Shown in pieces: positions 6,862 to 53,390 of a stretch of DNA of 64,000 nucleotides. The translations under genes and the position numbers were made by a program. The notes beneath the pieces were generated by a model. The model saw only the letters and a program-made list of their open reading frames with translations. It made no database searches and had not been told where the DNA came from. The stretch's first letter is position 1; each line of letters starts with the position of its first letter. The DNA is from Microbacterium arborescens (GTDB lineage: Bacteria; Actinomycetota; Actinomycetes; Actinomycetales; Microbacteriaceae): NCBI RefSeq assembly GCF_030369635.1, contig NZ_CP128474.1:2728001-2792000 (forward strand). The letters are read 5' to 3'.

Positions 6862-6924
6862 CGGAGGATGTCGCGAACTTCGGACCCTTAGGCACGATAC
6901 GTCCGAAGTCCGCGACATTCTCCG
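6862..6924. repeat. Intergenic hairpin, family B copy 1
   Basis: Two 24-base arms (6862-6885 and 6901-6924) are inverted copies with only two mismatches around a 15-base loop. The outer part carries the CGGAG(G/A)AT core shared with three other hairpins at 43603, 44851 and 45942. It lies after the mannosidase stop and could also end that transcript, although no T-run follows. Confidence 0.8.
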
Positions 6925-14083: not shown

Positions 14084-14144
14084 CTTCACCTGGCAGTCCC
14101 CGCCCACAAAACCGATGCGTGGGGGCGCGGACTGCCAGGTGAAG
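14084..14144. repeat. Intergenic hairpin, family A copy 1
   Basis: Arms at 14084-14107 and 14119-14144 are inverted copies, with the outer 16 bases CTTCACCTGGCAGTCC perfectly paired and a small bulge inside. The CTGGCAG/CTGCCAG core is shared with the copies at 51826 and 52983-53390. It lies between two convergent gene ends and could terminate both. Confidence 0.8.
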
Positions 14145-30487: not shown

Positions 30488-31785
30488 CAGTCGCGCTCCT
30501 CCGTCTTGGCTTCCGCCGGCGCCTCGCTTTCGAGCGCCGCGGTCTCATCGATGTCGTCGACCACGATCAGCTCGCGGTCGGCGTCGGTCGCGCCGAGTGC
30601 CTCCTCGGCGACGACGGCCCGACGCTGCCAGAGTGCGGCTTCGCCGGAGCGCCCCAGGTCCTCGAGCACAGCCGCCCGGGCCGCGAACAGAGCGGGGCTC
30701 CACGAGAAGGCGCGGTCAGGGTCGAGCTCGGGGATGTCGAGTTCCTGCAGCGCGCGCTCGGTCTCGCCGAGGTCGAGGCGGGCACCCGACATCGCGATCG
30801 CGAGCTCGACGCGGACCTCGATGGGAAGGGTGGACCGGTCGACGGCGCGGCCGACCTCGAGCGCCCGGTCGGGACGGCCGACTCCGCGCTCGCTGTCGAC
30901 CATCATGGCGATCTGGTCGTCGCTTCCGGAGATGCGGCGGTAGGTGCGCAGTTCGCGCAACGCGAGGGCGTAGTCGCCCGTCGCATAGGCGGTGATCGCC
31001 ACCGTCTCACGCACGACTCCGACGCGACCGGCCCGGCGCGATGCCGCGAGAGCGTGCTCGTGCGCGAGCTCGGGGTCGTCGTCGATCAGCTGCGCGACCA
31101 TGGCGAGGTGACGGGCGACCTGCTCCGCGTTCTCCTTGCTCAGGGTCTTCAGTTCGTTGCGCGCGGCGCCCGGCAGGTCACGAGCCGTGACGCTTTCGGG
31201 GATCTCCGGGCCGCGCGGGATGTCGCGACGCTCGGAACCCTGCGGCGGACGCGACGCACGTGCCCCGTCGCGGTCATCCCGACGCGGGCGCGCGTCGCCG
31301 TCGCGGCGCGGGTACGACGGACGGTCACCATCGCGACGAGGGTAAGAAGGACGGTCACCATCACGACGCTGGTACGACGGACGATCACCATCACGACGCG
31401 GACGGGAATCACCATCACGACGCTGGTACGACGGGCGGTCACCATCACGACGCGGGTACGACGGCCGATCGCCATCGCGACGCGGACGGGAATCACCATC
31501 GCGCTGCGGACGGGAATCAGCATCACGACGCTGGTACGACGGACGATCACCATCGCGACGCGGACCGGAATCACCATCACGACGAGGACGGGAATCACCA
31601 TCACGACGAGGACGGGAATCACCGTCGCGACGAGGACGGCCGTCTCCGGCGCCATCCCGACGCGGGCGATCGTCATTGGCACGCGGCGGACGGGAGTCGC
31701 CGTCGCGAGATGGACGCCGCGCACCGGAATCCGCAGCAGAGTAGCGGGGCTTACGCTCCGATCGCGGGCGGTCTTCTTCAGTCAC
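30487..31785 (-). CDS. TPR-like protein with Arg/Asp-rich repetitive N-terminus
   Basis: The 432-residue reading starts at GTG 31785, which has GAAAGGAAC upstream; a longer frame to 31953 would run through the rRNA terminator and 5S gene. About residues 25-175 are low-complexity Arg/Asp/Gly/Ser/Pro built of near-repeats RRDGDSRP and RRDGDRPSYQ. The C-terminal 240 residues are helical and TPR-like (ALALRELRTYRRISG, TERALQELDI). The function is unknown; related Microbacterium genes are labelled tetratricopeptide or primosomal proteins, with no strong basis. It is transcribed in the same direction as the rRNA operon and begins 26 bases after its terminator. Confidence 0.78.
   Translation of the reverse strand: MTEEDRPRSERKPRYSAADSGARRPSRDGDSRPPRANDDRPRRDGAGDGRPRRDGDSRPRRDGDSRPRRDGDSGPRRDGDRPSYQRRDADSRPQRDGDSRPRRDGDRPSYPRRDGDRPSYQRRDGDSRPRRDGDRPSYQRRDGDRPSYPRRDGDRPSYPRRDGDARPRRDDRDGARASRPPQGSERRDIPRGPEIPESVTARDLPGAARNELKTLSKENAEQVARHLAMVAQLIDDDPELAHEHALAASRRAGRVGVVRETVAITAYATGDYALALRELRTYRRISGSDDQIAMMVDSERGVGRPDRALEVGRAVDRSTLPIEVRVELAIAMSGARLDLGETERALQELDIPELDPDRAFSWSPALFAARAAVLEDLGRSGEAALWQRRAVVAEEALGATDADRELIVVDDIDETAALESEAPAEAKTEERD
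31262..31720. repeat. Coding tandem repeat of the TPR protein
   Basis: Units of 18-36 bases, all ending in a CGACG core with CATCACGACG or CATCGCGACG, recur about 15 times and encode RRDGDSRP, RRDGDRPSYQ and RRDGDRPSYP in mixed order. Units are nearly identical at DNA level, so unit number is likely to vary between strains by slippage. Confidence 0.8.
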
Positions 31786-44850: not shown

Positions 44851-44950
44851 GCGAAGTTCGGAGGATGCGGCGAAGTTCGGAGGATGCGGCGAAGTTCGGA
44901 CCGATCGGCTCGATCCCTCCGAGTTCGACGCGATTCTCCGTAGTTCGCGG
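44851..44950. repeat. Intergenic hairpin, family B copy 3, with 19-base direct repeats
   Basis: The 19-base unit CGAAGTTCGGAGGATGCGG occurs at 44852-44870 and 44871-44889, with a partial third copy at 44890-44900. The right arm, about 44917-44949, is the inverted copy of the left two units. It lies between the convergent ends of the flavin oxidase and the DUF559-type nuclease gene. Confidence 0.75.
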
Positions 44951-44971
44951 GCAGTCCCCGCGCGGCGCGAC

Positions 44972-45838
44972 TCACGGCCACAGGTGGAGTCGCTGAGCGA
45001 GAGCGCGCTGCAGGGTGCGCTGGACGGCGGCACGCTCGTGCACCACCTGCCGGTACGTGAAGCGCAGCACCGTGTAGCCGCGCAGCCGCAGCTCGGCGTC
45101 GTGGGCGACGTCCGCGGTGCGCTGCGCGCTCGAGGAGTGGAACGCGAATCCGTCGACCTGAACGACCAGCGCCTCGCCGATGAGGCCGTCGACGAATCGG
45201 CCGGCGATGCGGGCCTGTTGCACGACGGCGACACCGCGCTCGCGTAAGGGGGCGAAGATCAGCGTCTCCAGGCCGGAGTCGGATAGTCCCGTCACAGCGG
45301 AGGCGAGCTCACGCGCGGCGATGGAGGTCCAGGGCACCGCGCGCAGAGCTTCGGGCGCCAGAGCTTCGGCGCGGGATGCCGATTCCCACACCACGAGCGC
45401 CTCGTCGCGCGACAGGCATTGGGCGATGTGGCCGAGAGCGTCCTCGATCCCGGCTTCGAGATCCGACCGCGCGACGGGGCAGAGCGCCCGCGTCCAGTGG
45501 GCGCTGACGTCGGCGCCGATGAGGCCCGATGACGAGGCGCGCGGCAAGAGGTGGACGTGGTGTCGTTCGCGAATGCCGTCGGGAACCCACCAGCCGCGCC
45601 GCCGCGCGAGCGAGACGCACGTGAGCCTGCCGCCGGCGGATGCCGCGGCGAGCAGGTCGTGCGGAGCCCCGGCGGAGACGCACCACGCGCGGCGCACCAT
45701 CCGCAGTCCGCCTCCGGCCACGGCCTCGCGCAGCACGCGCACCGGGAACCCGGCTGCGAGCACCGCGCTGCGATGCGCGATACCGCCGGCGGCATCCACC
45801 CAGTCGGCCACTTCGGAGGGAGCAGGACGGCGCGGCAT
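44972..45838 (-). CDS. DUF559-type nuclease-like protein with AbiEi-like N-terminus
   Basis: The 288-residue protein has an N-terminal winged-helix region (about 5-60) resembling AbiEi-type antitoxin heads, a middle part, and a C-terminal DUF559/Vsr-like PD-(D/E)XK region. Candidate catalytic residues are Glu191 (LSDSGLETL), Asp217 (GRFVDGLIG) and Gln227-x-Asp229 (VQVDGFAFH). The stretch HDAELRLRGYTVLRF is the usual closing motif. Gln227 replaces the Glu most DUF559 proteins have. The function is unknown. It is bracketed by family B hairpins and starts with MPRRP like the second such gene at 51992. Confidence 0.8.
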   Translation of the reverse strand: MPRRPAPSEVADWVDAAGGIAHRSAVLAAGFPVRVLREAVAGGGLRMVRRAWCVSAGAPHDLLAAASAGGRLTCVSLARRRGWWVPDGIRERHHVHLLPRASSSGLIGADVSAHWTRALCPVARSDLEAGIEDALGHIAQCLSRDEALVVWESASRAEALAPEALRAVPWTSIAARELASAVTGLSDSGLETLIFAPLRERGVAVVQQARIAGRFVDGLIGEALVVQVDGFAFHSSSAQRTADVAHDAELRLRGYTVLRFTYRQVVHERAAVQRTLQRALAQRLHLWP

Positions 45839-45941
45839 CCCGTCATCGTGACGGCGCTTCGCCGCCGCGCGGCATCCGGACCCGAGAACTCGGGACGACA
45901 GCGCGCCACGGCGAGCTGGGGAGGAGCCGCCGCGCACGTCC

Positions 45942-46014
45942 TTCGTCGGAGAATGCGACGAAGGACGGACGATCCGCGGGGATCGGTCCGACCTTCGTCA
46001 GAATCTCCGAGCTT
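45942..46014. repeat. Intergenic hairpin, family B copy 4
   Basis: Arms at about 45942-45974 and 45981-46014 are inverted copies with several mismatches; the outer GTCGGAGAATGCGACGAAGG and its partner carry the family core. It stands between the guaB stop and the start of the nuclease gene. Confidence 0.75.
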
Positions 46015-46026
46015 CGGGCCCGGGGG

Positions 46027-47550
<1,524 letters not shown>

Positions 47551-47556
47551 TCAACG

Positions 47557-47562
47557 ATTCTA
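47557..47562 (-). promoter_or_regulatory. Possible -10 element of guaB
   Basis: On the minus strand TAGAAT lies about 25 bases before the guaB start, giving a short leader. No clear -35 was found at 17-18 bases. Confidence 0.3.
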
Positions 47563-47623
47563 AGCGCCCGGCGCCGCGCGGCATTCCCGCGCCCGAGATC
47601 CGCGAAACGACACACCGCATTCG

Positions 47624-47654
47624 TTGTTGCGCACCGGAAACACGCAAGCAACAA
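47624..47654. promoter_or_regulatory. Inverted repeat in the guaB/livH divergent region
   Basis: TTGTTGC (47624-47630) and GCAACAA (47648-47654) form a 7-base inverted repeat with a 17-base centre, 85 bases before livH. It could be an operator for the amino-acid transporter; this is a guess. Confidence 0.3.
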
Positions 47655-47738
47655 TCAGCGCATACGTTCAGGTGTCGCCGAAGCCACCAGCAGAACCGGT
47701 ACCTCTCGGCGTTCGTCCACTTATCTCAGGAGGTGCCA

Positions 47739-49058
47739 GTGGCGATCACTTCGATGACGCGCGCTGCTCGTCGCCCGAGGCGCATGTTCTCGACGTTGAT
47801 CGCCGGCCTCCTGGCCGCCGTGGCGTTCCTGGGCATCGCCTCCCCCGCCCTCGCCGCAGGCGACGACGCCGAGTCGTTGCCGTTCACGATCGCGGGCAAC
47901 GTCCGCACCGGCGGTGAACCCGTCGAGGGAGTCACCATCGTCGTGACCGGCGGCGACTTCGAAGCCGAAGGCGAGACGAACGAGAGAGGCAGCTTCTCGA
48001 TCGGCGTTCCGACCAAGGACGTCGCCTACACCGTCGAGCTCGTCGAAGACAGCCTCCCCTCGGGGGTGTCGGTTCCGGAGGGCTTCGAGCCCACCATCGA
48101 GGTGGAGTTCGGCGCGACCAGCACGATCACGCGCAACTTCACCCTCGAAGCGGCCGAGCGGCAGACGACGAGCTTCGTCGACCAGCTGCTCTCCCGCGCG
48201 GTCAACGGGCTGAACTTCGGTCTCATGCTGGCCCTCGCCGCGATCGGCCTCTCGCTCGTGTTCGGCACGACGGGACTGTCGAACTTCGCCCACGGCGAGA
48301 TGGTCACCTTCGGCGCGCTCGCCGCGCTGCTGTTCTCAGCCGGTTTCAGCCTGCCGATCTGGATCGCGATCCCGTTGGCGGTCGCCGTGTCGGCGCTGTT
48401 CGGGCTGACGATGGATGCCGGCCTGTGGCGACCGCTGCGACGCCGCGGCCTCGGCACCGTGCAGCTCATGATCGTCTCGATCGGCCTCTCGCTCGCGCTG
48501 CGCTACGTCTTCCAGATGTTCGTCGGCGGCGGGACGGCGCAGCTCCCCGGCGGTTCGACCTCGGTCATCCCCGGACTCGGCCCCGTCCGTCTCACCCTCA
48601 CCGACGTGATCAGCATGGGTGTCTCACTCGTGGTCATCGCCGGCTTCGCCTGGTGGCTGATGCGCACGAGGATCGGCCGCGCGACCCGGGCCGTCTCGGA
48701 CAACCCCTCGCTCGCCGCGGCCAGCGGCATCGACGTCGACGCGGTGGTCCGGGTCGTCTGGGTGGTCGCCGCAGCCCTCGCCGGCCTGTCCGGTGTGCTG
48801 TGGGCCTACTTCCGCCCGGGCATCAAGTGGGACATGGGCACCAGCATCCTGCTGCTCATCTTCGCCGCCGTCACGCTCGGCGGTCTCGGGACCGCCTTCG
48901 GCGCGCTCGTGGGCGCCATCATCGTGGGGCTCCTCGTCGAGGTGTCGACGCTGTGGATCCCCTCCGACCTCAAGTACGTCGGCGCGCTGGTCGTGCTGAT
49001 CGTCATCCTGCTGTTCCGCCCGCAGGGTCTCCTCGGGCGCCGAGAGCGAATCGGATAG
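47739..49058 (+). CDS. livH: Branched-chain amino acid ABC permease (LivH) with N-terminal ectodomain
   Basis: The 439-residue protein is LivH with an unusual extra front part. Residues 1-40 look like a signal peptide (FSTLIAGLLAAVAFLGIASP then ALAAGDD). Residues about 48-135 form a carboxypeptidase-regulatory-like beta domain (GNVRTGGEPVEGVTIVVTGG and NERGSFSIG). From about 155 the normal LivH permease follows (LALAAIGLSLVFGTTGLSNF, GVLWAYFRP). LivH normally begins near the first helix, so the ectodomain is an extension, probably outside the cell. The GTG at 47739 is preceded by AGGAGG. It is the first gene of livHMGF. Confidence 0.92.
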   Translation: MAITSMTRAARRPRRMFSTLIAGLLAAVAFLGIASPALAAGDDAESLPFTIAGNVRTGGEPVEGVTIVVTGGDFEAEGETNERGSFSIGVPTKDVAYTVELVEDSLPSGVSVPEGFEPTIEVEFGATSTITRNFTLEAAERQTTSFVDQLLSRAVNGLNFGLMLALAAIGLSLVFGTTGLSNFAHGEMVTFGALAALLFSAGFSLPIWIAIPLAVAVSALFGLTMDAGLWRPLRRRGLGTVQLMIVSIGLSLALRYVFQMFVGGGTAQLPGGSTSVIPGLGPVRLTLTDVISMGVSLVVIAGFAWWLMRTRIGRATRAVSDNPSLAAASGIDVDAVVRVVWVVAAALAGLSGVLWAYFRPGIKWDMGTSILLLIFAAVTLGGLGTAFGALVGAIIVGLLVEVSTLWIPSDLKYVGALVVLIVILLFRPQGLLGRRERIG

Positions 49059-49063
49059 GCATC

Positions 49064-50044
49064 GTGAACTTCCTTCAGATCCTCAGCAACACCGCGGCGC
49101 AGATCCTCGCCCCGGCGACCCTCGGGTACATCCTCGCCGCCATCGGCCTCTCGGTTCACTTCGGCTTCGCGGGCCTGCTGAACATGGGTGTCGCCGGGTT
49201 CATGGCGATCGGCGCCTACGGGTTCGCCATCTCGATCCTCACCTTCGGGCTCGCGTGGCCGGTGGCAGCGCTCGTCGGCCTCATCGCCGCCGTGATCTTC
49301 GCGCTCGTCATGGGCATCCCGACCCTCCGGCTGCGCGGCGACTACCTCGCGATCGTGACGATCGCAGCTGCCGAGGTGCTGCGCCTGCTCTTCCTGACGT
49401 CGGCGTTCCGCAACCAGACGGGATCGGCCGACGGTCTCTCGGGCTTCCAGGCCGGATTCCGCGCCAGCAACCCGCTTCCTCCCGGTCGGTGGGGTTTCGG
49501 GCCGTGGACCTACCAGTCGGACCAGTGGTGGGTCATCATCGTCGGGATCATCACGATCGCGATCGTGGTCGTGCTGGTCTGGCTGCTCATGAGCAGCCCG
49601 TGGGGGCGCGTCATCCGCGGCATCCGCGAGGACGAGGACGCCGTGCGCTCGCTCGGTAAGAACGTCTTCGCCTTCAAGATGCAGGCGCTCATCGTCGGCG
49701 GCGTCATCATCGCGGCGGGCGGCATCGTCACCGCCATGGGGACCAACGTCAACCCGAACGTCTACGTCACCTCGCAGACGTTCTACGTCTGGACGGCGCT
49801 GCTGCTCGGCGGCGCGGCCACCATCTTCGGCCCGGTGCTCGGCGCCGTGCTCTTCTGGGTGGTGCGCGCGTTCCTGTCGAACCTGCTGCCGGCCCTCGTC
49901 AACATCGGCTGGCTGCCGTTCCTGACCAGCGAGCAGAGCCAGATGCTCGTGTTCGTGCTGGTCGGCGTCGCGCTCATGCTGCTGGTGATCTTCCGCCCGC
50001 AGGGCATCCTCGGAAGCAAGAAGGAGCTGACCTTTGTCCGCTGA
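49064..50044 (+). CDS. livM: Branched-chain amino acid ABC permease LivM
   Basis: The 326-residue permease has about nine helices; LAAIGLSVHFGFAGLLNMGV is the LivM head, and the helical end closes with FRPQGILGSKKEL. The GTG at 49064 is five bases after livH. Cytoplasmic loop residues include IRGIREDEDAVRSLGKNVF. It pairs with LivH as the transport channel; the substrate is usually a branched-chain amino acid but urea or other amides are possible. Confidence 0.93.
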   Translation: MNFLQILSNTAAQILAPATLGYILAAIGLSVHFGFAGLLNMGVAGFMAIGAYGFAISILTFGLAWPVAALVGLIAAVIFALVMGIPTLRLRGDYLAIVTIAAAEVLRLLFLTSAFRNQTGSADGLSGFQAGFRASNPLPPGRWGFGPWTYQSDQWWVIIVGIITIAIVVVLVWLLMSSPWGRVIRGIREDEDAVRSLGKNVFAFKMQALIVGGVIIAAGGIVTAMGTNVNPNVYVTSQTFYVWTALLLGGAATIFGPVLGAVLFWVVRAFLSNLLPALVNIGWLPFLTSEQSQMLVFVLVGVALMLLVIFRPQGILGSKKELTFVR

Positions 50045-51071
50045 TGTCGTACCCCCGACGCCGCGCCCCAAGGCGACCGGCCTGCACAAAGACGACGGCA
50101 GCGGCGAGGTCCGCCCCGGCGTCGCGAAGAACGACCCCATCATCGTCGCCGACGGCGTCAAGCGCGTCTTCGGCGGCCTGACCGCGGTCGATGTCGAGCA
50201 CCTCGAGATTCCGCGCGGTGCCATCACCGCCCTGATCGGACCGAATGGCGCCGGCAAGACCACGCTGTTCAACCTCCTCACCGGCTTCGACAAGCCCAAC
50301 GCGGGGTCGTGGTCGTTCGACGGGACCAACCTGGCCGGCATCCCCGCCTTCAAGGCGGCCCGCATGGGCCAGGTGCGCACGTTCCAGCTGACGAAGTCGC
50401 TCGGCCTGCTCACGGTGCTCGAGAACATGAAGCTCGGTGCCCCGAAGCAGACCGGCGAGGGGATCTTCGCCGGCATCCTCCCCTTCCTCTGGCGCAAGCA
50501 GGAGGCGGAGATCGAGGAGAAGGCGCGGGGCCTGCTCGCGCGGTTCAAGCTCGACACGAAAGAGAAGGACTTCGCCGCGTCGCTCTCGGGCGGACAGCGC
50601 AAGCTCCTCGAGATGGCCCGTGCGCTCATGAGCGATCCCGTGCTCGTCATGCTCGACGAGCCGATGGCCGGGGTGAACCCCGCGCTGACGCAGTCGTTGC
50701 TCGACCACATCCTCGACCTGAAGGACCTCGGCATGACCGTGGTCTTCGTCGAGCACGACATGCACATGGTGCGCCACATCGCCGACTGGGTGGTCGTGAT
50801 GGCCGAAGGACGCGTCGTCGCCGAGGGCCCGCCCGACACCGTGATGCAGAACCCCGCCGTGATCGACGCGTATCTCGGCGCGCATCAGGACGTCGACCTC
50901 GGCGTCGTGACGGGCCGCCACGCCGGCGAGCTGCCGCCCGAGGCGGAAGAGCTCGTCGAGACCGTGCACGAGCTCGACCAGGCGATCGTAGAGGCGCCGA
51001 CCACGGATGCCGCGGGTGTTCCGGATGCCGCGGATGCCGCGGATGCCGACAAGGATGGGGACCGCAAGTGA
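50034..51071 (+). CDS. livG: Branched-chain amino acid ABC ATPase LivG
   Basis: The 345-residue ATPase starts with TTG at 50034, with AAGGAG eight bases upstream, overlapping livM by 11 bases. Walker A is GPNGAGKTTLFNLL, the signature LSGGQRKLLEMARALM, Walker B VLVMLDEPMAGVN and the switch His in VEHDMHMV. A 35-residue N-terminal extension and a C-terminal Ala/Asp-rich tail of about 50 residues are unusual; the tail ends in imperfect 9-base DNA repeats (GGATGCCGC) encoding DAADAAD. Confidence 0.93.
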   Translation: MSADVVPPTPRPKATGLHKDDGSGEVRPGVAKNDPIIVADGVKRVFGGLTAVDVEHLEIPRGAITALIGPNGAGKTTLFNLLTGFDKPNAGSWSFDGTNLAGIPAFKAARMGQVRTFQLTKSLGLLTVLENMKLGAPKQTGEGIFAGILPFLWRKQEAEIEEKARGLLARFKLDTKEKDFAASLSGGQRKLLEMARALMSDPVLVMLDEPMAGVNPALTQSLLDHILDLKDLGMTVVFVEHDMHMVRHIADWVVVMAEGRVVAEGPPDTVMQNPAVIDAYLGAHQDVDLGVVTGRHAGELPPEAEELVETVHELDQAIVEAPTTDAAGVPDAADAADADKDGDRK

Positions 51072-51790
51072 CCGAGAACGTCGTCGAGCTGTCCGACGTG
51101 CACGCGGGGTATCTGCCCGGCGTGAACATCCTCAACGGCGCGAACCTCACCGCCGCCCCCGGTGAGCTCGTGGGGATCATCGGCCCGAACGGCGCCGGCA
51201 AGTCCACGATGCTCAAGGCGATCTTCGGTCAGGTGAAGGTGCGCTCCGGTTCGGTGAAGCTGAACGGCGAGGAGATCACGGGGCTGCGCGCCAACAAGCT
51301 CGTCTCGAAGGGCGTCGGCTTCGTGCCGCAGACGAACAACGTCTTCCCGAGCCTGACGATCGCCGAGAACCTGCAGATGGGGGCGTACCAGCGACCGAAG
51401 GTCGTCGCGGAGCGCACCGACTTCGTGACATCCATCTTCCCCGATCTCGCCAAGCGGCTGCAGCAGCGGGCGGGATCGCTGTCGGGCGGCGAACGTCAGA
51501 TGGTCGCCATGGGGCGCGCGCTCATGATGGACCCGTACGTCCTGCTGCTCGACGAGCCGTCGGCGGGCCTGTCGCCGTCGCGTCAGGACGAGGCGTTCCT
51601 GCGGGTGTCGGAGATCAACAAGGCGGGCGTGACGACGATCATGGTCGAGCAGAACGCCCGGCGCTGCCTGCAGATCTGCGACCGCGGGTACGTCCTCGAC
51701 CAGGGTCGCGACGCCTACACGGGGACCGGCCGCGAGCTGCTCAACGACCCCAAGGTCATCGGCCTGTACCTCGGCACCCTGGGCACCTGA
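51068..51790 (+). CDS. livF: Branched-chain amino acid ABC ATPase LivF
   Basis: The 240-residue ATPase is the second energising subunit. Walker A is GPNGAGKSTMLKAI, signature LSGGERQMVAMGRALM, Walker B VLLLDEPSAGLSP, and the LivF-type sequence FVPQTNNVFPSLTI is clear. GTG overlaps the livG stop as GTGA. A family A hairpin after the stop may end the operon. Confidence 0.94.
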   Translation: MTENVVELSDVHAGYLPGVNILNGANLTAAPGELVGIIGPNGAGKSTMLKAIFGQVKVRSGSVKLNGEEITGLRANKLVSKGVGFVPQTNNVFPSLTIAENLQMGAYQRPKVVAERTDFVTSIFPDLAKRLQQRAGSLSGGERQMVAMGRALMMDPYVLLLDEPSAGLSPSRQDEAFLRVSEINKAGVTTIMVEQNARRCLQICDRGYVLDQGRDAYTGTGRELLNDPKVIGLYLGTLGT

Positions 51791-51791
51791 C

Positions 51792-51829
51792 GCCTGGTTT
51801 GGCTGGCTTCGCCTGGTTTGGCTGGCTTC
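51792..51829. repeat. 19-base tandem direct repeat after livF
   Basis: GCCTGGTTTGGCTGGCTTC occurs twice head to tail (51792-51810 and 51811-51829) and runs straight into the left arm of the hairpin. Confidence 0.85.
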
Positions 51830-51886
51830 GCCTGGCAGTTCTCGCCCCTTCTCACACGCGGAAGGGGCCTGAGCTGCCAGGCGAAG
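51826..51886. repeat. Intergenic hairpin, family A copy 2
   Basis: Left arm 51826-51851 and right arm 51861-51886 (26 bases each) are inverted copies with three mismatches around a 9-base loop. It has the TTCGCCTGGCAG core. It lies between livF and the second DUF559-type gene. Confidence 0.85.
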
Positions 51887-51991
51887 TGCATTTGACGGCG
51901 GCGCTCCTCCCCCACGAGAGAGCTGGGTGGGATGTGCACAGGCGGGGACGCCCGCCCACACGCGGGCCGCGGCCGCCCGCAGGATGAGGGA

Positions 51992-52972
51992 ATGCCGCGA
52001 CGTCCGGAGCCTTTGCCCGAAGACCTCGACGAGGTGTTCTCGTGCGCCGCGGCATCGGCGTCGGGCATCTCGCCCAAGCGGCTGCGTGCGGCAGACCTCG
52101 ACACGCCCTTCCGCGGCGTGCGCCGAAGGCGCGGAACAGAGGATGCCGTAGCGTGCGGGCTGCTCGACGACGATCAGGAGGTCCGACGCCGGGTGCTCGA
52201 CCGCGCGCGAGCCTACTCCCAGATCATGGACGCGCGGGCCTTCTTCTGCGGACGGACGGCAGCGGTGCTCTGGGGGACGAGCGCTCGTCCCCCGAGCGAG
52301 CTCGAGGTGGGGGTCGTCGCGCCCGCGCGCGCACCGCGCCGGCACGGCATCCGAGGACGCCAGCTCGCCCCGACGCACGTCGAGGTGACCACTCTCGGAG
52401 GCCTGCGGGTGTCGACGCCGGCATCGACGTGGGCGATGCTCGGGCGGGATGCCGGTGTTCGCGAGCTGGTCCGCATCGGCGATGCTCTCGTGCGGGTGCC
52501 GCGCGGTGAGCGGGGGCGGCGCCTGCCCGAGGAGCGACTGAGCACGGTCGAGGAGCTGGCTGTCGCCGCCGCCGCGGGGAGACGTGTCGGCTCCGCGAAG
52601 CTCGCGGAAGCGCTCGCGCTCATTCGTGAGGGCGCGATGTCGCCGCTGGAGACCGACTTCCGGCTCGTCGTCGTCGCGGCGGGGCTGCCGGAGCCTGTGC
52701 TCGACCGTGAGATCCGGGATCGTGCGGGGCGCTTAGCGGGGATCGCGGATGCCGTCTGGCCCGAGTACCGCGTCATCGCCGAGGTCGAGGGCGACCACCA
52801 CCGCACCTCGAGACGCCAATGGGCGCGCGACATCGAGAAGCACACCGCCTACGTCGCTCTCGGCTTCGAGGTGGTGCGGCTCACCTCCGCGCACATCCGA
52901 CCCACCGGCTCCGCGGCAGTGGCCCTCGTGGGCGGTGCCCTGCGACGGCGCGGCTGGTCTCCCCCGCGCTGA
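51992..52972 (+). CDS. DUF559-type nuclease-like protein
   Basis: The 326-residue protein has an uncharacterised N-terminal 200 residues with an AbiEi-like middle (GVRRRRGTED, STWAMLGRDAGVRELVRIGD) and a C-terminal PD-(D/E)XK-like region. Candidate active-site residues are Glu220 (MSPLETDFRL), Asp253 (GIADAVW) and Glu264-x-Glu266 with His269/270 (AEVEGDHH). DIEKHTAYVALGFEVVRLT is the usual DUF559 closing motif. The ATG at 51992 starts MPRRP. It lies inside the liv locus between livF and livJ, with family A hairpins on both sides. Its biological role is unknown. Confidence 0.8.
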   Translation: MPRRPEPLPEDLDEVFSCAAASASGISPKRLRAADLDTPFRGVRRRRGTEDAVACGLLDDDQEVRRRVLDRARAYSQIMDARAFFCGRTAAVLWGTSARPPSELEVGVVAPARAPRRHGIRGRQLAPTHVEVTTLGGLRVSTPASTWAMLGRDAGVRELVRIGDALVRVPRGERGRRLPEERLSTVEELAVAAAAGRRVGSAKLAEALALIREGAMSPLETDFRLVVVAAGLPEPVLDREIRDRAGRLAGIADAVWPEYRVIAEVEGDHHRTSRRQWARDIEKHTAYVALGFEVVRLTSAHIRPTGSAAVALVGGALRRRGWSPPR

Positions 52973-52982
52973 CCACGCTCCG

Positions 52983-53390
52983 CCTGGCAGCTCGCGCCCA
53001 CTCCCGAACCAGGAACGGGCGCCAACTGCCACCCCAATCCCAGACCGATGGCCCCACTTGGCAGCTTGCGCCCACTCACGCCCAGAGAGTGGGCGCCAAC
53101 TGCCAATTCAGCAACTGTGGGGCAACCGGACTGGCCGGGGCGCCGGCACGCCGAGCCGGCGGTCCACGCCACACGTGGCTGCTCGTGCCTGCTCCGCGCC
53201 TCCGAAGGGGCGCCAACTGCCAGCTCGGGCACCGACCCAGCCCAGGCCGATGCCTTACTTGGCAGCTCGCGCCCGCTCACGCCCCGAGAGGGGGCGCAAA
53301 CTGCCAACTCGAGCCTCGACCCCGTCCAGACCCGGGCTCACCTGGCAGCTCGCGCCCGCTCACGCCCCGAGAGGGGGCGCCAACTGCCAA
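52983..53390. repeat. Array of five family A hairpins
   Basis: Five palindromes follow one another: 52985-53031, 53058-53106, 53176-53222 (diverged left arm), 53259-53307 and 53341-53390. Each has a left arm like TGGCAGCTCGCGCCC and a right arm like GGGCGCCAACTGCCA. The fourth and fifth are nearly identical over about 50 bases and 82 bases apart. No gene is seen in this 500-base gap; open frames reading through it have no start signal. Confidence 0.88.

Follow-up and report, generated by a model that had tools for sequence, protein, structure and literature searches.

We analyzed a 64,000-nucleotide (nt) window of the 3.37-Mb Microbacterium arborescens genome (NZ_CP128474.1, positions 2,728,001 to 2,792,000; genome label G000), in which two small nuclease genes, here called P1 and P2, each lie between short palindromic elements. 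A preliminary description of this DNA had located both genes and had placed family B hairpins on either side of P1 and family A hairpins on either side of P2, and our reading of the sequence agrees (Table 1). It had also assigned one hairpin family to each bracketed gene, which stands for the flanks, but families A and B each have a further copy in the window away from the nucleases. A strict hairpin scan of the window found 12 hairpins, five of them belonging to A or B, and none in each of two local shuffles. Folded as single-stranded DNA, eight of the elements gave z-scores from -3.5 to -8.4 relative to shuffles.

The same arrangement recurs throughout the genome. A DUF559/MTES_1575 search marked nine places, two of which were dropped (a 1251-amino-acid (aa) frame and a weak match taken to be cardiolipin-synthase-like), and the genome holds seven small nuclease genes of the DUF559/MTES_1575 type. 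All seven are flanked on both sides by palindromes, with a different family at each. This was read by eye, as were the flanks of the genus, class, G059, P2-relative, and truncated-gene loci discussed below; G059 is a comparison genome taken for M. oleivorans.

Our automated bracketing test covered 300 nt on the upstream side of each gene and 250 nt on the downstream side. It measured the repeat that the two flanks share as well as the best palindrome of each, and a gene was called bracketed when two of these three measures exceeded 95% of control genes. Besides the seven M. arborescens genes, it was applied to 20 other Microbacterium loci (preselected from MTES_1575 matches without viewing their flanks, two of them from one genome) and to 20 loci of the class outside Microbacterium, chosen for short frames from the MTES_1575 matches in the class. 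Two-sided bracketing was called at 5 of 7, 11 of 20, and 8 of 20 loci, respectively, compared with 1 of 224 control genes; the controls were all from Microbacterium, even for the class loci, 31 of 255 having been excluded as nuclease-adjacent. Control genes and gene contexts came from a home-made caller based on GC content at third codon positions (GC3), which can be wrong. Two-sided bracketing is thus specific to this nuclease type.

Further measures point the same way. The shared repeat alone passed at 6 of 7 M. arborescens, 13 of 20 Microbacterium, and 13 of 20 class loci, and a long upstream palindrome (score of at least 12) was present at 54 of 97 nuclease loci but only 15 of 255 control genes. 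Of the 53 loci in an earlier set, 38 lay beyond the 95% level of mismatched flank pairs (six of the original 59, L085, L105, L124, L128, L133, and L141, were excluded for an over-long frame, contig ends, or partial matches). By eye, all 20 genus loci had an upstream palindrome and about 17 had a full or half downstream copy. Among the 20 class loci, about 13 were bracketed, two had an upstream palindrome only, and five were ambiguous, partly because start codons are uncertain. Five more loci, one with a truncated gene, also looked bracketed by eye. We consider the bracketing observation to be confirmed and general. A first flank test with 400-nt windows and a score of at least 30 was set aside; 9 of 20 nuclease loci passed it, compared with 8 of 251 control genes and 100 of 1942 random windows.

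Table 1. Features of the window and the other nuclease-associated palindrome families of the genome. Window coordinates count from its first letter; positions in kb refer to the genome.
Feature	Position	Strand	Remarks
Nuclease gene P1, 288 aa	44972..45838	-	N-terminal part with weaker AbiEi-like match, plus Vsr-like nuclease domain (predicted)
Family B element downstream of P1, 63 nt	44878..44940	-	Partial repeat reaching ~44851
Family B element upstream of P1, 65 nt	45946..46010	+	G059 has a counterpart
Conserved CTCCTCCCC motif	45918..45926	-	88 nt ahead of P1 start codon
Nuclease gene P2, 326 aa	51992..52972	+	AbiEi-like N-terminal part plus I-Bth0305I/Vsr-like nuclease domain (predicted)
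Family A element upstream of P2, 61 nt	51826..51886	+	
Conserved CTCCTCCCC motif	51904..51912	+	88 nt ahead of P2 start codon
Family A downstream array, copy 1, 49 nt	52984..53032	+	
Family A downstream array, copy 2, 49 nt	53058..53106	+	
Family A downstream array, copy 3, 49 nt	53175..53223	+	Degenerate
Family A downstream array, copy 4, 49 nt	53259..53307	+	
Family A downstream array, copy 5, 49 nt	53342..53390	+	
Remote family B element	6862..6924	+	Between GH38 alpha-mannosidase and NRDD genes
Remote family A element	14084..14144	+	Between convergent GNAT and EngA genes
Family C	348 kb		Beside nuclease gene N5
Family D	1226 kb		Beside nuclease gene N7
Family E	2229 kb		Beside nuclease gene N3
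Family F	2594 kb		Beside nuclease gene N4
Family G	2612 kb		Beside nuclease gene N6

P1 exceeded the Pfam cut-off for DUF559 (25.9 vs. 20.6 bits) and fell slightly under that for MTES_1575 (37 vs. 38.2), and P2 matched AbiEi_1, DUF559, and MTES_1575, all below cut-off; together with one weak DUF2750 match, these are the Pfam matches of the pair. At E ≤ 0.01, P2 itself matched neither MTES_1575 nor DUF559, compared with 36 and 19, respectively, of the 45 aligned members of its clade. PADLOC returned weak matches, to AbiEi for P2 (best E 0.0022) and to a homing endonuclease for P1 (E 0.026). A PDB sequence search with a P2 profile gave no nuclease or AbiEi match, and an NCBIfam search gave no match. 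The predicted structures combine an AbiEi-like N-terminal part, for which P2 has the better and P1 a weaker match, with a nuclease domain that has the Vsr/I-Bth0305I catalytic fold and its conserved acidic and His residues. The MPRRP start shared by P1 and P2 had been singled out earlier; a similar start (consensus MPRxPxPLP) is kept in relatives of P2 but not in those of P1, and since P1 and P2 are only about 10% identical, the resemblance carries little meaning. MTES_1575 itself is common, with matches in 39 of 39 Microbacterium genomes at E ≤ 0.001 (19 over the family cut-off) and, across the class, in 107 of 197 genomes at E ≤ 1e-6 (77 over cut-off), counts which include long multi-domain proteins.

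In the three families examined for this, the elements consist of conserved inverted arms held at a fixed distance around a diverse spacer. Seven full copies of the family at locus L155 (five in genome G018 and one each in G015 and G008) are 94 nt long, apart from one of 95 nt, with arm identity of 93% and spacer identity of 46%, compared with 34% for shuffled spacers. At five of the eight remote sites of this family in G018, a single arm fits the pattern. Conserved ends and a variable interior are likewise seen in family E (74 nt, n = 9) and in family G (75 nt, n = 14), and at least two different Watson-Crick pairs occur at 20 of 37 positions in G and 7 of 37 in E. This anatomy bears on the alternative that we are looking at ordinary intergenic hairpins (terminators or mRNA stabilizers) which lie near these genes by chance. 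Remote copies are indeed often found in convergent or tandem gaps, but the arms enclose a large spacer at a fixed length, each M. arborescens nuclease gene has a different family, and 1 of 224 control genes was bracketed. We regard chance or simple terminator use, the alternative named in the preliminary description, as highly improbable.

Nuclease lineages have families of their own, a point that the preliminary description had put up for checking and that is supported by the flank readings by eye and by the extracted elements. Across 71 of 100 loci (three near-duplicates and 26 loci without a clear element were excluded), arm similarity was correlated with nuclease identity (Mantel r = 0.29; none of 5000 permutations was as high). 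Arms were shared by 12 of 20 pairs with nuclease identity above 60%, 18 of 150 pairs at 50 to 60%, 7 of 239 at 40 to 50%, and 6 of 1656 below 30%. Common descent accounts for part of this co-divergence in flanking copies; remote copies show that the match extends in trans. A first run on 73 loci, which included two duplicates, gave r = 0.34 and is superseded. The seven M. arborescens nucleases share at most 49% identity with one another, and each is closer to a relative in another genome, by narrow margins for N5 (34 vs. 36%), N6 (49 vs. 52%), and N7 (36 vs. 40%).

Six of the seven M. arborescens families (A, B, D, E, F, and G) also have copies far from their nuclease gene. We sampled 864 kb (26% of the genome) and counted remote copies of exact length relative to the mean count per wrong spacing, obtaining 6 vs. 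0.10 for E, 17 vs. 2.30 for G, 2 vs. 0.00 for F, 3 vs. 0.30 for A, 1 vs. 0.05 for B, and 1 vs. 0.20 for D. The B count was obtained with P1's element as the query; the window's remote element gave 8 vs. 1.65. This sample shows dispersal of A, E, F, and G, and genome searches show that of A, B, and D. In total, the sample held 34 matches for the seven M. arborescens families and likewise 34 for 52 foreign families; when the spacing was relaxed, 11 of 36 foreign families matched, with 37 matches in total.

In the genome searches, palindromes were read at five remote places for family A, and family B had remote matches at 791, 2580, 136, and 1381 kb (E-values of 1e-5, 0.01, 0.02, and 0.23). Family D had four remote single-arm matches, compared with one for the reversed pattern, and all four lie in full palindromes, one of them with two paired changes. 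Two identical 61-nt family A elements lie 4.8 kb apart (G000:C1:757377 and 762140), which suggests local duplication. The family G core, CGACAGGCTCAG, presumably resembles a repeat of many actinobacterial genomes. One candidate pattern for tracing a family across 99 genomes, TGGCAGNTCGCGCCC, was rejected: it had 30 matches in M. arborescens, compared with 7 for its reverse, and 9 compared with 10 in G059, which has a P2 ortholog. Thus, a single family pattern fails to track an ortholog once the arms have drifted. With regard to the expectation that copies would gather around nuclease genes, bracketing proved specific, but many copies lie beside unrelated genes, so they do not simply cluster at nucleases, as is also the case with repetitive extragenic palindrome (REP) systems.

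Dispersal was also seen in other genomes. An arm search for the L155 family found 14 matches in its own genome, G018, three in G015, two in G008, and none in the remaining 36 of 39 genomes; in G018, these comprise flanking copies and eight remote sites. An arm of locus L153 matched eight times in G037, where half of these sites are remote, and once in each of eight other genomes (three matches in total for the reversed control). These distributions bear on the idea that another enzyme or host repair spreads or keeps the palindromes, with the nuclease policing them or cutting their cruciforms. A nuclease encoded next to palindromes might just as well destroy them, and copies without an adjacent nuclease exist, but the absence of the L155 family from most genomes and the co-divergence of lineage-specific families with their nucleases argue otherwise. 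In addition, no Y1 transposase was found in the M. arborescens genome, other transposase families lying outside that search. We consider this reading improbable.

For the upstream copy, the chief alternative is autoregulation of the AbiEi type, in which the upstream palindrome would be the operator for the nuclease's self-repression, downstream and remote copies would be other sites or decoys, and nothing would be mobilized. AbiEi represses its own promoter via inverted repeats that are long and spaced (PMC3985639). The fold predicted for the N-terminal part agrees with this, in P2 better than in P1, as do the excess of long upstream palindromes at nuclease loci and the arms, which are kept while spacers drift, like binding sites. 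An operator explains the upstream copy well. However, downstream copies and tandem arrays exist, a P2 relative (locus L243) has lost its upstream palindrome and retains the downstream array, and remote copies do not favor the divergent gaps where promoters would lie. Among 26 remote copies, eight were in convergent gaps, 11 in tandem gaps, none in divergent gaps, six in predicted frames (some of them doubtful), and one was ambiguous, compared with 73 convergent, 172 tandem, and 82 divergent gaps in a background of 327; this sample excludes four G matches with seven mismatches and most B matches, and copies within one gap are not independent. Divergent gaps held 1 of 8 remote sites in G018 and 1 of 4 in G037. 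We judge autoregulation without mobilization to be unlikely, though a less remote prospect than policing, and an operator function and the two-part system proposed below may both hold.

The closest parallel is with REP doublets forming hairpins (REPINs) and REP-associated tyrosine transposases (RAYTs), also called REPtrons. A REPIN consists of a pair of inverted REPs around a spacer that is highly diverse, and it is duplicated by a single-copy RAYT with adjoining REPs (PMC3116915; PMC8049555). The E. coli-type enzyme acts on REPs in single-stranded form, which it cuts and joins (PMC8266576). The present system is alike in pairing a single-copy gene with flanking palindromes from one family, in having intergenic copies that are dispersed and arms that are conserved around a diverse spacer, and in its clusters and several lineages per genome. 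In M. arborescens, we found the one-family flanks, the dispersed copies (six of seven families), and single-copy, lineage-distinct genes. The enzyme is unlike, being by its predicted fold a Vsr-like nuclease with an AbiEi-like part and not an HUH Y1 transposase; a search for the RAYT-type Y1_Tnp family had no match in this genome at E ≤ 0.01 and matched 6 of 14 control genomes. The preliminary description had pointed to just this combination of a RAYT/REP-like layout with a different protein type. Since the layout matches and the enzyme does not, the system may work like REPIN-RAYT without being a member of it.

Two other known systems share parts of the protein. AbiE type IV toxin-antitoxin systems are alike in the predicted AbiEi-like part (a weaker match in P1) and in the geometry of the AbiEi operator, which the palindromes resemble, but here that part is fused to a nuclease, and palindromes occur on both sides and are dispersed. 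No AbiEii nucleotidyltransferase toxin gene was present among the neighbors of P1 and P2, the two loci tested; these neighbors match FAD oxidoreductase, IMP dehydrogenase, ABC transporter ATPase, and periplasmic binding proteins. Vsr and the I-Bth0305I homing endonuclease have the catalytic-domain fold of the predicted models, whereas P1 and P2 are free-standing genes among ordinary genes, with palindromes of their own.

We favor, with moderate confidence, the reading that small actinomycete nucleases of the DUF559/MTES_1575 type make up two-part systems with short palindromes, each specific to its lineage and of the REPIN-RAYT type but with an unrelated enzyme. Every such gene would have a palindrome family of its own, in which a variable spacer separates conserved inverted arms at a fixed distance, and copies would flank the gene, sometimes in arrays, and in most tested families be dispersed in the genome as well. 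The AbiEi-like N-terminal part may recognize both arms, and the C-terminal Vsr/homing-endonuclease-like domain may nick or cut at or near the arms or at a matching empty site. Repair would then copy the element to new places or keep existing copies alike. What we observed is bracketing on both sides, families that are specific to lineages and dispersed, arms that are conserved while spacers drift, co-divergence of arms and nucleases, and the predicted fold; that the nuclease recognizes, binds, cuts, spreads, or maintains its palindromes is what we infer from these observations. Overall, the interpretation offered in the preliminary description is partly supported.

Presence and absence of the elements differ between genomes. 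In G059, the gene pair around N6 lies about 80 nt apart, without the nuclease and without the G copies; N6 was the one locus of 13 from M. arborescens that aligned on both sides in the fetched stretches. G059 retains the B elements of P1, and its A array holds two copies where M. arborescens has five (by eye); a relative with a 99%-identical P2 has a longer A array. Gain and loss are indistinguishable in these presence/absence cases. The GNAT gene by the empty N6 site (L228/L229) seems, by eye, to lack an internal stretch relative to M. arborescens.

Several results weigh against a two-part system. The automated test missed 2 of 7 M. arborescens, 9 of 20 Microbacterium, and 12 of 20 class loci, and the arm conservation in the L155, E, and G families is partly built in because copies were retrieved via their arms. 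Dispersal of family C is unsupported, since its four remote copies in the 864-kb sample do not rise above the wrong-spacing background of 3.95, and the genome-wide pattern search for family A had a high background (31 matches, 10 of them flanking P2, with the reversed pattern giving 15). In G015 and G008, copies of the L155 family had no nuclease inside the fetched 3 kb, and the closest nucleases that were examined in these genomes share about 50% identity with that of L155 and have other palindromes. The L243 relative, whose P2 is 82% identical, keeps the downstream array with the upstream A element gone, and another P2 relative has a different upstream palindrome and no clear downstream copy (both by eye). 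Another orthologous gap, in which two E copies are absent, was the sole gap among 34 remote sites with both flanks in the fetched DNA, and the presence/absence cases, in which neither a precise junction nor a target duplication was evident, could be deletions.

Some side observations concern possibly decayed loci and upstream regions. L155-family palindromes without a nearby nuclease (L253 in G008; L255 and L258 in G015) are possible orphans of a lost lineage. At L329 in G015, a frame of about 73 aa with a nuclease-domain match, probably a truncated nuclease gene, is still flanked by shared repeats (by eye). The CTCCTCCCC motif ahead of P1 and P2 was found at 20 of 72 genus loci and in none of 255 control upstreams. 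The form TCCTCC[CA]C lies upstream of 44 of 97 nuclease loci, at 29 of them 86 to 90 nt before the estimated start codon; it spans lineages whose palindromes are unrelated, and YCCACAG often follows after about 30 nt. The motif is possibly a common promoter or leader element. Elsewhere in the window, positions 31275 to 31710 hold tandem repeats at 24 and 30 bp spacing, with several overlapping alignment registers to G059.

In searches of the Creative Commons-licensed PubMed Central literature, with subscription papers and preprints outside their scope, we found no report of palindrome-bracketed DUF559/MTES_1575 genes. Tentatively, and with less confidence than for the two-part systems themselves, we suggest that actinomycetes may harbor mobile palindromes which are spread and kept uniform by arm-targeting, homing-endonuclease-like nucleases, a second, independent invention of a REP/RAYT-like system and a cause of dispersed palindromic repeats. 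The findings provide a testable role for a common family of so far unassigned function, MTES_1575, and a candidate origin for the dispersed palindromes of actinomycetes. Should the nuclease indeed act on its palindromes, unrelated enzymes would have given rise to REP-like systems on more than one occasion, and natural nucleases whose matched recognition arms change would be open to study.

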